From the NCBI RefSeq assembly GCF_003319125.1, contig NZ_QOHG01000001.1, positions 186,001 through 250,000 on the forward strand: a stretch of 64,000 nt of DNA. The letters run 5' to 3'. Both the position numbers and the translations under genes were made by a program. Of this stretch, positions 31,518 to 37,153 are shown piece after piece. The notes under the pieces were generated by a model. That model was given only the letters and a program-made list of their open reading frames with translations. It did no database searches and was not told the origin of the DNA. Source of the DNA: Blastococcus sp. TF02A-26 (GTDB taxonomy: Bacteria; Actinomycetota; Actinomycetes; Mycobacteriales; Geodermatophilaceae). Position 1 is the first letter of the stretch. The number at the start of each line of letters is the position of its first letter.

Positions 31518-33407
31518 GTGAACAACATGACCTCCATGGCGGCGATGCGGTCGTTCAAGCGCGATCCGTCGGTCACCGAGCGGCAGCTGCCGAAGGGGAC
31601 GGTCCGCCGGATCCTGGGCATCGCGCGGCCCTACCGCCGCGAGCTGAGCTGGTTCCTGCTGCTCGTCGTGGGCTCGTCGCTGATCGGCGTCGTCACCCCG
31701 CTGCTGGCCGGCCGGATCATCAACCGGATCGCGTCGCTGGAGGGGACCTCCGGCGACATCGTCCGCATCGCGCTGCTCATCGCCGGGCTGGCCGTGGTCG
31801 ACGCCGGGATCTCCCTGGCCACCCGCTGGTACTCCTCGCGGATCGGCGAGGGCGTCATCTACGACCTGCGTTCGCGGGTGTTCGAGCACGTCCAGCGGAT
31901 GCCGGTCGCCTTCTTCACCCGGACGCAGACCGGTGCGCTGGTCAGCCGGCTGAACAACGACGTCATCGGGGCGCAGCAGGCCTTCACCTCGACGTTGTCC
32001 GGCGTGGTCTCCAACGTCATCGGCCTGGTCCTGACCGCCGGCGTGATGCTCACGCTGTCGTGGCAGATCACCCTGCTGTCGCTGGTGATGGTCCCGCTGT
32101 TCGTGCTGCCCGCCCGCCGGATCGGCCGGCGGCTGCAGGAGATCACCCGGGAGTCCTACGCGCTCAACGCGTCGATGAACGCCACGATGACCGAGCGGTT
32201 CAACGTGGCCGGCGCCCTGCTCGTCAAGCTCTTCGGCCGGCCCGCGGTGGAGGCCGAGGGCTTCCGCGGCCGGGCCGCGCGCGTCCGCGACATCGGCGTG
32301 CTGTCGGCGATGTACGGCCGCACCTTCTTCACGGCGCTGACGCTGGTCGCGGCCCTCGCCACGGCGCTGGTCTACGGCCTCGGCGGCACGCTGGCCTTCG
32401 ACGGCTCGCTGAGCCCGGGCGACGTCGTCGCCCTGGCCCTGCTCCTCTCGCGCCTCTACGGGCCGCTGACGGCGCTGTCGAACGTCCGGGTCGACGTCAT
32501 GAGCGCGATGGTGAGCTTCGACCGCGTCTTCGAGGTGCTCGATCTGCCGCCGATGATCCGCGAGGCCCCCGACGCCGTCCCGGTGCCCGCGGACGACCGG
32601 TCCATCGAGTTCGACGCCGTGTCCTTCAGCTACCCCGCCGCCAGCGATGTCTCCCTGCCGTCGCTGGAGGAGGTGTCCCTGCCCGAGCACGGCGGGCCGA
32701 CGGCGGTGCTGCACGACGTCTCCTTCCGGGTCGAGCCCGGCCAGCTGGTCGCGCTGGTGGGGCACTCGGGCGCCGGCAAGTCGACGATCGCCAACCTCGT
32801 GCCGCGGCTGTACGACGTCACCGACGGGGCGATCCGCGTCGGCGGGGTCGACGTCCGGCAGGCGACCCTGGAGTCGCTGCGCGACACGATCGGCGTCGTC
32901 AGCCAGGACGCGCACCTGTTCCACGACACGATCCGGGCCAACCTGCTCTACGCCCGCCCCGACGCGACCGAGCAGCAGATCTGGGACGCCCTGACCGGGG
33001 CGCGCATCGCCGCGCTGATCGGATCCCTCCCCGACGGGCTGGACACCGTGGTCGGCGACCGCGGCTACCGGCTCTCCGGCGGGGAGAAGCAGCGCCTGGC
33101 CATCGCCCGCGTGCTGCTCAAGGCGCCGGGCATCGTGATCCTCGACGAGGCGACCGCCCACTTGGACAGCGAGTCGGAGGTGGCCGTGCAGCACGCACTG
33201 GACACCGCGCTGGCGGGGCGGACCTCCCTGGTGATCGCCCACCGGCTGTCGACCATCCGCAGTGCAGACCAGATCCTGGTGGTCGACGGCGGTCGCATCG
33301 TGGAGTCGGGCACTCACGAGGAGTTGCTGGCACTCGGACACCGGTACGCCGAGCTCTACCGGACCCAGTTCGCCGACGGCGAGCGTCGGACGGTCGGCGC
33401 CGCCTGA
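31518..33407 (+). CDS. ABC-type exporter, fused membrane and ATPase domains
   Basis: The 629-residue protein has six transmembrane helices (residues about 40-310) and a C-terminal ATPase with Walker A GHSGAGKST, signature LSGGEKQRLAIARV and Walker B IVILDEATAHLD. It is a half-transporter of the MsbA/multidrug exporter kind and should work as a homodimer because no partner gene is adjacent. A short insertion (SLPSLEEVSLPEHGG) interrupts the start of the ATPase domain. The GTG was chosen because GAAGGAGG lies seven bases upstream. The cargo is unknown. Confidence 0.93.
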   Translation: MNNMTSMAAMRSFKRDPSVTERQLPKGTVRRILGIARPYRRELSWFLLLVVGSSLIGVVTPLLAGRIINRIASLEGTSGDIVRIALLIAGLAVVDAGISLATRWYSSRIGEGVIYDLRSRVFEHVQRMPVAFFTRTQTGALVSRLNNDVIGAQQAFTSTLSGVVSNVIGLVLTAGVMLTLSWQITLLSLVMVPLFVLPARRIGRRLQEITRESYALNASMNATMTERFNVAGALLVKLFGRPAVEAEGFRGRAARVRDIGVLSAMYGRTFFTALTLVAALATALVYGLGGTLAFDGSLSPGDVVALALLLSRLYGPLTALSNVRVDVMSAMVSFDRVFEVLDLPPMIREAPDAVPVPADDRSIEFDAVSFSYPAASDVSLPSLEEVSLPEHGGPTAVLHDVSFRVEPGQLVALVGHSGAGKSTIANLVPRLYDVTDGAIRVGGVDVRQATLESLRDTIGVVSQDAHLFHDTIRANLLYARPDATEQQIWDALTGARIAALIGSLPDGLDTVVGDRGYRLSGGEKQRLAIARVLLKAPGIVILDEATAHLDSESEVAVQHALDTALAGRTSLVIAHRLSTIRSADQILVVDGGRIVESGTHEELLALGHRYAELYRTQFADGERRTVGAA

Positions 33408-33451
33408 CCACTACCGTTCCTCCTGTCCCAACAGCACCACAGGGGGAATCG

Positions 33452-33916
33452 TTGACTTCAGCCCATCCGCAGGACGCCCAGATCCGTGCCCTGTACGCCG
33501 CGTTCCTCGAGGCCTGGAACCGGCGCAGCGGCGCGGCGGTGGCGTCCACCTTCGCCGACGACGGGGACATCGTCGGCTACGACGGCACGCACACCAGCGG
33601 GCGCCTGTCGATCGCCTCGGAGCTGCGCCGCGTCTTCAGCAGCCACCCGACCGCGACCTACGTCGGCCTGGTCCGTTCGGTCCGCCAGATCGCGCCCGGC
33701 GCGGCCGTGCTGCACGCGCACGCCGGCGTCATCCCGCCCGGCGAGGAGGACCTGGACCCGGTGCTGCACTGCCAGCAGACGGTCGTCGCCGTGGAGGAGG
33801 CCACCGGCCGCTGGAAGATCTCGCTCTTCCAGATCACCCCGGTGGCCTTCGCGGGCAAGCCGGCGGCGCGCGAGGCGCTGACCACGGAGCTGCGCGGCCT
33901 GCTCGCCGTCCGGTGA
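33452..33916 (+). CDS. SnoaL/SgcJ-EcaC-like NTF2-fold protein
   Basis: The 154-residue protein has an NTF2-like alpha-plus-beta pattern, starting IRALYAAFLEAWNRRSGAAVASTFADDGD and ending with VEEATGRWKISLFQITPV, as in the SgcJ/EcaC (DUF4440-like) family. The function is not known for this branch. Start is a TTG with AGGGGGA upstream; TACCGT (33412-33417) could be its -10. It overlaps the sulfurtransferase gene by four bases, suggesting one mRNA. Confidence 0.8.
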   Translation: MTSAHPQDAQIRALYAAFLEAWNRRSGAAVASTFADDGDIVGYDGTHTSGRLSIASELRRVFSSHPTATYVGLVRSVRQIAPGAAVLHAHAGVIPPGEEDLDPVLHCQQTVVAVEEATGRWKISLFQITPVAFAGKPAAREALTTELRGLLAVR

Positions 33917-34764
33917 GCAGGGACGCCGTCCTCGTCCCCGCGGCGGGGCTCCTCGCCGAGCCCCGCCGCGTGGTGCTGCTCGACGTCCGCTGGGCGCTGG
34001 GTGAAGACCGCGGGCGCGAGCGGTACCTCGAGGGACACCTGCCCGGTGCGGTCTTCGTCGACCTCGACACCGAGCTGGCCGATCCGCCGTCGGCCGAGGC
34101 GGGCCGGCACCCGCTGCCGTCGCTACAGCGACTGGAGGCAGCGGCCCGCCGGTGGGGGATCTCCGCCGGCGACCGGGTCGTGGCCTACGACGACAGCGGC
34201 GGCCTGGCCGCGGCGCGGGCCTGGTGGCTGCTGCGCTGGGGCGGCCTGGCCGACGTCCGGCTGCTGGACGGCGGGCTCGCCGCCTGGCGTTCCGCCGGCG
34301 GTCCGGTCGAGTCCGGCGACGTCGTCCCGGCGTCGGGGGACGTGACGCTGACCGGCGGCGGGATGCCCATCCTCACCGCGGACCAGGCGGCCGCGCTGCC
34401 CGGGCGCGGTGGCGTGCTGCTCGACGCCCGCGCGGCCGAGCGGTACCGCGGCGAGGTGGAGCCGGTCGACCCGCGGGCCGGCCACGTGCCCGGCGCCCGG
34501 AGCGCTCCGACGACGGCGAACCTCGGGCCGGACGGCACCTTCGCTCCAGTCGCTGTACTGGGTGAGCGGTTCGCGGCGCTGGGGGCGGTCCCGGGAGCGA
34601 ACGTGGGCGTCTACTGCGGCTCCGGCGTGACCGCCGCCCACGAGGTCGCGGCGCTCGCCGCGGCCGGTGTGGAGGCCGCGCTGTGGCCCGGGTCGTGGTC
34701 CCAGTGGTCCGCGGACCCGCAGCGGCCGGTCGCGGTCGGCGACGACGTCAGTGCAGCGCCTTGA
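33913..34764 (+). CDS. Two-domain rhodanese-type sulfurtransferase
   Basis: The 283-residue protein has two rhodanese domains: an inactive N-terminal one (LLDVRWALGEDRGRERYLEGHLPGAVFVDLD, shown only in its landmarks) and a C-terminal one with the active Cys235 in the loop VYCGSGVTA. Such enzymes move sulfur from thiosulfate or 3-mercaptopyruvate to acceptors. The CGSGVT loop is closer to the 3-mercaptopyruvate (SseA) type, but substrate cannot be fixed by reading. The GTG start overlaps the previous stop. Its 3' end overlaps the convergent SMR gene by 17 bases. A 14-base inverted repeat lies inside the gene (34124-34137 and 34544-34557). Confidence 0.9.
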   Translation: MSRDAVLVPAAGLLAEPRRVVLLDVRWALGEDRGRERYLEGHLPGAVFVDLDTELADPPSAEAGRHPLPSLQRLEAAARRWGISAGDRVVAYDDSGGLAAARAWWLLRWGGLADVRLLDGGLAAWRSAGGPVESGDVVPASGDVTLTGGGMPILTADQAAALPGRGGVLLDARAAERYRGEVEPVDPRAGHVPGARSAPTTANLGPDGTFAPVAVLGERFAALGAVPGANVGVYCGSGVTAAHEVAALAAAGVEAALWPGSWSQWSADPQRPVAVGDDVSAAP

Positions 34765-35062
34765 GCCCGATCACGCAGCCGACGATCCCGGCGACTAGCA
34801 GCAGCCGCAGTGCGCTGACCGGCTCGGCGCCGGTGACCATGCCGATCAGGACGGTGAGGGCGGCGCCGATGCCGACCCAGACGGCGTAGGCGGTCCCGGT
34901 CGGCAGCTCGCGCAGCGCGTAGGCCAGCCCGGCCATGCTCAGCACCAGCGCGACGGCGAAGACCACCGAGGGCCACAGCCGGGTGAAGCCCTCCGAGCGG
35001 CCGAGCGCGGTGGCCCACACCGACTCCAGGACTCCGGACACCACGAGCACGAGCCAGGACAC
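34748..35062 (-). CDS. SMR-family guanidinium exporter (Gdx/SugE type)
   Basis: The 104-residue protein has four transmembrane helices and the small-multidrug-resistance proton site Glu13 in SGVLESVWATALGRSEGFT; the Trp-Ala spacing and GFT after it are those of the Gdx (guanidinium exporter) subtype rather than the EmrE drug exporters. A guanidine-III riboswitch aptamer lies just upstream, which is strong support for guanidinium export as the function. The GTG start has GGAGG five bases upstream. It follows the DUF427 gene on the same strand. Confidence 0.95.
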   Translation of the reverse strand: MSWLVLVVSGVLESVWATALGRSEGFTRLWPSVVFAVALVLSMAGLAYALRELPTGTAYAVWVGIGAALTVLIGMVTGAEPVSALRLLLVAGIVGCVIGLKALH

Positions 35063-35080
35063 GACGACCTCCAGGAAGGT

Positions 35081-35121
35081 CGCCGTCTTGTCGCTGTCCG
35101 GGTACGGCGCCGCTCGTCCGG
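35081..35121 (-). promoter_or_regulatory. Guanidine-III (ykkC-III) riboswitch aptamer
   Basis: Read on the minus strand, this 41-base segment holds all the conserved blocks of the guanidine-III aptamer in order: CCGGACGAG, then CGCCGUACCCGG, then ACAAGACGGCG, with short variable spacers. The GCCGU and ACGGC blocks form the pseudoknot and the CCGG blocks the first helix. The aptamer ends eight bases before the GGAGG of the SMR gene, and ACCUUCC just after it can pair with the GGAGGU, so control is likely at translation initiation: guanidine should expose the ribosome site. The similarity to the crystallised Thermobifida fusca aptamer is close, as recalled. Confidence 0.92.
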
Positions 35122-35165
35122 GGGACCGGGTGGTCCTCCCTCCAGGGTCGCACGGACGGCGGCCG

Positions 35166-35915
35166 TCAGCGGGAGAAGTGGGTCACCGGACGCTCCTGCC
35201 GGACGCCGTCCAGCACGACGTCCACCTCCTCGTCGAGGAAGGCCACGAGCCCGGCGATCGGCAGCACCGCGGCGGCGGGGGAGTCGTAGCTCCAGGCCAC
35301 GTCCGCCGGGCCGCCGGGGACGGACCAGTAGCCGCTCGTGCGTCCCTTGTAGGGGCACCGGGTGCGGGTGTCGCTGGGGGCGAGCTGCTCGAACCGGACG
35401 TCGGTGCGCGGCAGGTAGTACCGGGTGGGCAGCCCGGTCTCGAACAGCAGCACGGGGGACGACGACTCCGCGAGGACGGCGCCGCCCAGCTCGATCCGCA
35501 CCCGCCGCTGGGACCGGAGTGCGTCGACGCGGGCGTAGGGGCTGCGCGGGTGGACGACGACCTCCTCGTCCTCCTCGAACCAGGCGTCCAGCGCCGACCA
35601 CTCGAACCGCAGGTAGCCGGCCAGCGGCCCGTCGGTGTAGCGCCATCCCGCGGCCGGCCGGACGGTGCCGCCGTCGCGCAGCCCGTACCGGCGGGCCCGC
35701 CCCAACGGGCGGTCCTCGTCGACCCCGTCGTCGACGAGGACGGCGGGGTCGACGTCCGCCGGCGGGACGTGGAACTGCGGGTACGGCGGCCACTCCCACC
35801 CGTAGCGAGCCCGGGTGGTGTCGAGGACGAACCGGCCGCCCAGGAGCGCCCGGACCCGCCGCGGCACGGGCTCGACGTGCCCGACGGGGACGATCGCCCG
35901 CGGATACCCGCTCAT
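35166..35915 (-). CDS. Tandem DUF427 domain protein
   Basis: The 249-residue protein contains two copies of the DUF427 (beta-tent) fold: one around RRVRALLGGRFVLDTTRARYG and a more typical second one around RRVRIELGGAVLAESSSPVLLFE to CPYKGRTSGYWSV. The family is widespread in actinobacteria and has no firmly known reaction. I used the ATG that starts MSGYPRAIVPVG; a start 42 bases upstream would overlap the lipoprotein gene. It lies upstream of the guanidine exporter, but the riboswitch suggests separate control. Confidence 0.82.
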   Translation of the reverse strand: MSGYPRAIVPVGHVEPVPRRVRALLGGRFVLDTTRARYGWEWPPYPQFHVPPADVDPAVLVDDGVDEDRPLGRARRYGLRDGGTVRPAAGWRYTDGPLAGYLRFEWSALDAWFEEDEEVVVHPRSPYARVDALRSQRRVRIELGGAVLAESSSPVLLFETGLPTRYYLPRTDVRFEQLAPSDTRTRCPYKGRTSGYWSVPGGPADVAWSYDSPAAAVLPIAGLVAFLDEEVDVVLDGVRQERPVTHFSR

Positions 35916-35932
35916 GCCGGTGCCGGAGGCGG

Positions 35933-36424
35933 TCAGGGGCAGTTCTCGTCGATCCACTCGTTGACCCGTTGGAAGGCCGGGCCGACGGTCGTCTCCCCGG
36001 CGGAGATGATGTCCACCGCCTGTTGCTCGGCGTCCGGTGCCGCGGGGTCGATCGCCGCCACGGTGTCACGCAGCCCGGCGAAGCCGTCGCGGGACTCCTC
36101 CCAGTCGTCGGCGATCTCCTCCGGCGGCTCGAGCGCGTCGAACGCGTCGACGGCCTGCTGGAGCACCTCGGCGTAGGCCGCGCTGCCCGTGCCCTCGGCG
36201 GCGTCGAACGCCTCGTCGACCTCGTCGAACAGCGCCTCCCCGTCGGTGCAGAACTCCTCGTACTCCTCGTTGCCGGTGGTCGGCGCGCTCGACGACGAGG
36301 AGCTCCCGGAGGTGGAGGGCGTCGTGGCCGGGGCGGCGGTTCCCCTCACCTCGTCGCTGCAGCCGCTCAGCAGCAGGCCGGCGGCGAGGACGACGGGCAC
36401 GAGGACGCGAGGCAGACGGCGCAC
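35933..36424 (-). CDS. Small acidic lipoprotein of unknown function
   Basis: The 163-residue product has a signal peptide ending in the lipobox LSGC (Cys22), a Ser/Thr/Pro linker (TPSTSGSSSSSSAPTTG) and a helical acidic domain with cysteines in EEFCTDGE and at the C-terminus (IDENCP) that could form a disulfide. I do not recognise a named family. GTG is the start, six bases after TAGCGT, so the mRNA should be leaderless. Confidence 0.8.
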   Translation of the reverse strand: MRRLPRVLVPVVLAAGLLLSGCSDEVRGTAAPATTPSTSGSSSSSSAPTTGNEEYEEFCTDGEALFDEVDEAFDAAEGTGSAAYAEVLQQAVDAFDALEPPEEIADDWEESRDGFAGLRDTVAAIDPAAPDAEQQAVDIISAGETTVGPAFQRVNEWIDENCP

Positions 36425-36430
36425 CGCCCC

Positions 36431-36436
36431 ACGCTA
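36431..36436 (-). promoter_or_regulatory. -10 element for leaderless lipoprotein mRNA
   Basis: TAGCGT on the minus strand ends six bases before the lipoprotein GTG; no ribosome site is present. Confidence 0.55.
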
Positions 36437-36460
36437 TCCACCGGGCTCTCCGGGTGCAGG

Positions 36461-37153
36461 TCAGCGCCGCGCGGCGTCGTACCGGTCGAGCAGGACCGCG
36501 GCGATCCGCGGGTCGGGCAGCAGGGGAGCGGTGACCAGGTCGGCGCCGGCGCCGGCGAGCTTGCCGGCGAAGTGGCCGGGGGCCAGCAGGTAGGCGGCGA
36601 CGACCACGCGTTGGGCACCGGCTCGCCGTGCGGCGGAGACGGCCTCGGGCACCGGCGGCTGTGCGGCCGACCCGTACCCGGTGGTGACCGGTCCGGCCCA
36701 GGAGCGCTGCAGCAGGGCGGCCGTCTCCTCGACGTCGGCCACCGCGCGCGGGTCACTGGACCCGGCGCCGGCCAGCACGACGGCGGTCCGGGCGTCCCCC
36801 GGGTCGGCGCCGGCCTGCCGGAGCCGGTCGTCGAGCACCTCCGCCAGCCGGGGGTCCGGCCCCAGCGGCCGCGCGGCCACGACGCCGTCCGACCCGGCGA
36901 CGGCGGAGGCGATGTCGACGTGCACGTGGTAGCCGCCGGACAGCAGCAGCGGGACGACGACCGCGCGCCGTCCCTCGGCGGCCAGCCCGGCGACGACGTC
37001 GGCCACGGTCGGCGGCTGGACGTCGACGAACGCGGCGGTGGTGTCGAGGCCCGGGCGCTGCTCGCGGGCGGCGAGGGCGAGCTCGGCGATCAGCCGCCGT
37101 CCGGTCGGGTTGCGGGTGCCGTGCGCGCAGGCGACGAGGACGGGGTCCTTCAT
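36461..37153 (-). CDS. Sirohydrochlorin chelatase (CbiX family)
   Basis: The protein (about 230 residues) has the CbiX/SirB pattern twice: VLVACAHGTRNPTGRRL with the metal-site His near the N-terminus and VVVPLLLSGGYHVHVDI with a second metal-binding region; the second half repeats the fold (TAVVLAGAGSSDP). It would insert iron or cobalt into sirohydrochlorin for siroheme or B12. No other tetrapyrrole or sulfite/nitrite reductase gene is beside it. Start is ambiguous: GTGATG gives either a GTG overlapping the SDR stop or the ATG used here. Confidence 0.85.
   Translation of the reverse strand: MKDPVLVACAHGTRNPTGRRLIAELALAAREQRPGLDTTAAFVDVQPPTVADVVAGLAAEGRRAVVVPLLLSGGYHVHVDIASAVAGSDGVVAARPLGPDPRLAEVLDDRLRQAGADPGDARTAVVLAGAGSSDPRAVADVEETAALLQRSWAGPVTTGYGSAAQPPVPEAVSAARRAGAQRVVVAAYLLAPGHFAGKLAGAGADLVTAPLLPDPRIAAVLLDRYDAARR

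Follow-up and report, generated by a model that had tools for sequence, protein, structure and literature searches.

A 64,000-nt stretch of the genome of Blastococcus sp. TF02A-26 (contig NZ_QOHG01000001.1, positions 186,001 to 250,000; hereafter the window, numbered from its first letter) carries, on its minus strand, a guanidine-III riboswitch aptamer directly upstream of a gene for a Gdx-type exporter of the small multidrug resistance (SMR) family (Table 1). Our analysis of this locus led us to conclude, with a probability of about 0.93, that the riboswitch controls the translation of a Gdx-type guanidinium/proton antiporter. A first-pass annotation, made from the sequence alone, had placed a guanidine detoxification unit at 34748–35121. 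The aptamer reaches beyond this interval, as the covariance model match begins 20 nt further 5', at 35141, with a small hairpin. The unit itself, as predicted from sequence, is supported by the aptamer match together with the Gdx-type SMR gene.

Table 1. Predicted features of the riboswitch and exporter gene (window positions).
Feature	Positions	Strand	Basis
Guanidine-III riboswitch aptamer	35077..35141	-	RF01763 positions 1-67 of 67, cmscan
5' hairpin in aptamer model: GGACC 35136-35132 / GGUCC 35127-35123	35123..35136	-	cmscan alignment
Conserved block CCGGACGAG	35113..35121	-	sequence + cmscan alignment
Conserved block CGCCGUACCCGG	35098..35109	-	sequence
Conserved block ACAAGACGGCG	35081..35091	-	sequence
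Main aptamer helix CGCCGU 35109-35104 / ACGGCG 35086-35081	35081..35109	-	cmscan structure line
Proposed OFF-state hairpin ACGGCGACCUU-CCUG-GAGGUCGUCGU, 11 bp	35061..35086	-	RNAfold
Shine-Dalgarno site GGAGG, 5 nt 5' of start	35068..35072	-	sequence
Gdx-type SMR exporter gene, 104 aa, GTG start (35062-35060)	34748..35062	-	PF00893, PDB 6wk5

The three conserved guanidine-III blocks that had been read in the minus-strand leader were all found at the places given, and the search proposed at the time, with the Rfam guanidine-III covariance model, was carried out. RF01763 (Guanidine-III, ykkC-III) matched the leader with 57.3 bits against a gathering score of 36 (E 3.2e-9 in a cmscan of the 64-kb window against 4227 Rfam families), with one model pair, flagged by two v marks in the alignment, being a non-standard pair. 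This was the sole Rfam match above the gathering score in the whole window, and no second guanidine-III match was present in the 4.68-Mb genome. The strands of the main aptamer helix enclose the conserved ACCCGG...GACAAG loop, and the CCGG of CCGGACGAG has as its pseudoknot partner what we take to be the CCGG at 35101–35098. Only 14 nt separate the match from the SMR start, placing the aptamer within the leader of a gene related to guanidine, and eight bases lie between the 3' aptamer strand and GGAGG, as had been counted earlier. The aptamer belongs to the guanidine-III family, for which guanidinium binding and the pseudoknot are predicted here. A chance resemblance of the three blocks has practically no probability; nothing was found in favour of this explanation, and it was ruled out by the E value, the full-length model match, and the position of the lone hit directly 5' of the SMR gene.

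The product of the SMR gene, which gave the only PF00893 match in the genome (81.6 bits, Pfam cut-off 23.7), was most similar in the PDB to 6wk5, with 84.5 bits and a gap-free alignment of residues 1–102 to residues 1–102, while EmrE entries scored 47.1 bits or less. The entry 6WK5 is Gdx-Clo (PMC7695847). The Gdx pattern noticed around Glu13 was borne out by the translation and the 6wk5 alignment, as E13, W16, S42, Y59, W62, and GIG at 64–66 were all present; roles in the Gdx-Clo substrate site are described for E13, S42, W62, Y59, and W16 in PMC7695847, and the GXG fulcrum is named in PMC9574504. One score counts against the assignment: the NCBIfam SugE equivalog NF008512, nonetheless the top-scoring NCBIfam model for this protein, gave 99.1 bits and did not reach its curated cut-off of 126, so the protein was filed as Gdx-type and not as SugE. 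The Pfam and NCBIfam names, which read multidrug or quaternary ammonium, would suit a broad-range or quaternary-ammonium (Qac-type) exporter in place of a guanidinium exporter, and some substituted guanidiniums are also carried by Gdx-Clo (PMC7695847). We nevertheless regard such an exporter as very improbable, because Gdx-Clo was nearer than EmrE in the PDB search, because W16 is present at a position where the Qac subtype has Gly or Ala (PMC7695847), and because the gene stands behind a guanidine aptamer. The protein is most likely Gdx-type, with guanidine as the predicted exported substrate.

The segment ACCUUCC, right after the pseudoknot, had been suggested to pair with the ribosome site. 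This was right in kind and understated in extent, as a predicted 11-bp hairpin, of which the segment forms the inner part, uses the 3' strand of the aptamer and reaches the start codon. The 5' arm of this 26-nt hairpin with a CCUG loop opens with ACGGCG, i.e., the whole 3' strand of the main aptamer helix, and the 3' arm takes in four of the five Shine-Dalgarno (SD) bases and the GU of the GUG start. The hairpin was seen in both the minimum free energy (MFE) and the centroid folds of the 102-nt leader, and the 39-nt segment containing it had a predicted energy of -17.1 kcal/mol (z -2.5, RNAfold). When the part downstream of the aptamer strand was shuffled, 129 of 5000 shuffles equalled its stability, and 27 of 5000 combined an energy no higher than -15 kcal/mol with pairing of every one of the six aptamer bases to the SD-start region. 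The aptamer helix and the OFF-state hairpin are mutually exclusive, because both use the same six bases. For a 76-nt fragment lacking the 5' hairpin, nested folding gave energies that exclude the pseudoknot and the ligand: the free fold had -33.7 kcal/mol and the fold with the aptamer helix enforced -24.2 kcal/mol.

These models fit a translational ON switch. With guanidine absent, ACGGCG and the following ACCUU would fold onto the ribosome site and the start codon in the cell, and no exporter would be made. With guanidinium bound, ACGGCG would be locked in the aptamer helix and pseudoknot, leaving the long hairpin without a partner; GGAGG and the GUG start would then be freed, the exporter made, and guanidinium pumped out. 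We infer ligand binding, the direction of switching, and transport in this scheme. For the guanidine-III class, ligand binding is described in PMC12186494 as freeing the SD sequence, with the mRNA also being stabilised.

To place the leader among its relatives, we drew on a sample of 298 genomes from the order, one of which is the window's own. In 172 of them, RF01763 was matched with an E value of 0.001 or lower, and in 167 above the cut-off. Loci were compared in a set of 171, which is a biased sample (80 were chosen by SMR similarity and 91 by RF01763, and a few genomes are present twice). The motif was located in 166 of these by a fuzzy pattern search, the other five being dropped, although the pattern fitted poorly in a few loci (e.g., three substitutions in L035 and L112); an SMR match lay within 1.2 kb downstream in 157 of the 166. 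By SMR sequence, the nearest named relatives included Blastococcus sp. URHD0036, at 89%, and two species of Geodermatophilus, at 81 and 75%. For leader comparisons, L121 and L131 were excluded because their contigs match those of L033 and L050 in length and were taken as repeats. Leaders in which the distance from the aptamer ACAAGAC to the start fell outside 10–60 bases were also excluded, leaving 148 leaders (138 distinct) for hairpin stability. The comparison of start windows, for which an ATG, GTG, or TTG start was also required, kept 146 leaders (136 distinct).

Several results weigh against the OFF-state hairpin as the switch. The 102-nt Blastococcus leader as a whole was just moderately stabler than its shuffles (z -1.51), of which 17 of 200 equalled or exceeded its stability, and the MFE fold of a congener, L122, was without the hairpin. 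Across the 138 distinct leaders, the stability of the segment was at the level of shuffles (mean z -0.09); 37 of 138 leaders had four or more of the six aptamer-strand bases paired with the SD-start region, as compared with 1412 of 6900 shuffles (20%), and the SD region was slightly less paired than in shuffles (0.509 versus 0.526, p 0.019). General conservation of the exact hairpin, which had been expected to stand out, was rejected on the mean z and the count of 37. The sole pairing measure above shuffles was that of the aptamer strand with anything downstream (0.69 versus 0.60). The lack of conservation of the SD hairpin as such would suit a different account, in which the aptamer is real and acts mainly through mRNA protection, its pseudoknot blocking RNase E scanning, and the SD hairpin is secondary or incidental. 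We consider this account unlikely, as the hairpin predicted in the Blastococcus leader is strong, covers the SD site and the start, and excludes the aptamer; moreover, mRNA protection and translational control can coexist.

A smaller feature of the leaders lies next to the start codon. The ACAAGAC-to-start distance was 17–20 nt in 99 of the 136 distinct leaders, and GTC stood directly 5' of the start in 68 of them, as compared with at most 16 of 404 other gene starts, which are heuristically called open reading frame starts and not curated genes. Among these 404, GTC was outside the eight commonest trinucleotides directly 5' of the start; within -6..+2, it occurred in 76 of 136 leaders versus 39 of 404. 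Complementarity between the aptamer strand and the start window came to 10.5 in the leaders and to 9.0 at the other gene starts. Leaders swapped between species gave 10.0 (p 0.21 against 10.5), so there was no sign of lineage-specific covariation. The GTC before the start fits a minimal partner for the aptamer GAC; common descent explains it equally well, given that these are homologous leaders and that the swap control was negative. The combined proposal, that the expression platform of the Blastococcus leader works by direct strand exchange, with the 3' aptamer strand serving as the anti-ribosome strand into the start codon, and that actinobacterial gdx leaders keep a short GUC 5' of the start as a minimal partner for the invariant aptamer GAC, is one that we advance tentatively, at less than even odds.

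Some relatives carry the aptamer in other settings. Among the loci listed, the guanidine-III aptamer of L002, L004, L006, L007, L008, L012, L022, and L151 lies 17–20 nt before a gene for a ureohydrolase-like protein of 378–388 aa that replaces the SMR gene. The L004 protein was agmatinase-like by NCBIfam, below the cut-off. Judging from sequence, these proteins are plausibly guanidine hydrolases; residues specific for guanidine are named in PMC11410670. In L171, the aptamer stands 19 nt before a gene whose 83-aa product belongs to the CBU_0592 membrane family (44.3 bits, cut-off 25), and no SMR match was present within the 1.2 kb searched downstream; this gene, seen once among the 166 loci, is a possible unrecognised guanidine-linked gene. 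In L161–L166 and L170, all of one family (f16), a variant aptamer has GCCAAGAC in place of GACAAGAC, and the gdx start is 60–68 nt away. The aptamer block GGACGAGTCG pairs with a downstream copy of CGACTCGTCC over 10 bp in the MFE folds of L163, L164, and L170, and with a bulge in that of L161; the pairing was not in the folds of L162, L165, and L166. If true, it would be a different kind of switch, masking the 5' conserved block.

The exporter had been described as standing without a guanidine carboxylase or hydrolase nearby, and this held genome-wide for the four degradation families tested in the draft genome (53 contigs, listed completeness 99.98%). The ureohydrolase family PF00491 and TIGR03425 had no match. 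Urea/guanidine carboxylase TIGR02712 gave partial matches only (best 539.7 bits at positions 1–441 of 1201, cut-off 1303.85), which probably stem from the biotin-carboxylase and related portions of other enzymes, and allophanate hydrolase TIGR02713 gave matches below the cut-off only (best 154.6 versus 511.05 bits). A guanidine-I riboswitch was likewise without a match in the genome. With no above-cut-off match for the four families in this draft, export may be the only dedicated response to guanidine.

Upstream of the aptamer, a co-directional gene with a DUF427 (PF04248) match occupies 35957–35166 of the minus strand, its stop 24 nt from the aptamer match. Such a match lay 5' of the aptamer in 4 of 166 loci, which come from three genomes of the genus (L121 repeating L033), although 62 of the 166 have less than 500 nt upstream, where absence says little. 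On this count, the gene was rejected as a functional partner and taken as a neighbour in the genus, outside the unit. The DUF427 and SMR genes may be co-transcribed, in which case the riboswitch would lie between cistrons; a scan of 34700–36600 for promoters and terminators found none, the sigma-70 consensus being a weak test in GC-rich sequence. On the opposite strand, a convergent open frame at 33262–34764 (+) matches 3-mercaptopyruvate sulfurtransferase at residues 238–491 (124.8 bits, cut-off 250), and its 3' end overlaps the final 17 bases of the SMR gene.

The pairing of riboswitch and exporter is correct but ordinary, being well known and widespread. The locus confirms a further predicted unit for guanidine detoxification, and its genome may have only export to rely on; what our analysis adds is a sharper definition of the switching hairpin and the finding that, across the genome, none of the degradation families tested gave a match above its cut-off. 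The leader offers a clear strand-exchange model for a translational guanidine-III switch, a principle already described for the class. The exporter, which shares with Gdx-Clo the gap-free alignment and the residues named above, differs in being an actinobacterial sequence whose transport is predicted. Blastococcus sp. URHD0036 (L033) has the same unit of aptamer and SMR gene, whereas the hairpin predicted for it differs, with a core of GACCUC/GAGGUU and an outer part that is interrupted. The guanidine-III class is described as occurring mainly in actinobacteria (PMC12186494). The TF02A-26 aptamer resembles that class in its 67 of 67 model positions, its place before an SMR gene, and its actinobacterial host, and what sets the Blastococcus leader apart is only the sequence of its downstream switching hairpin.
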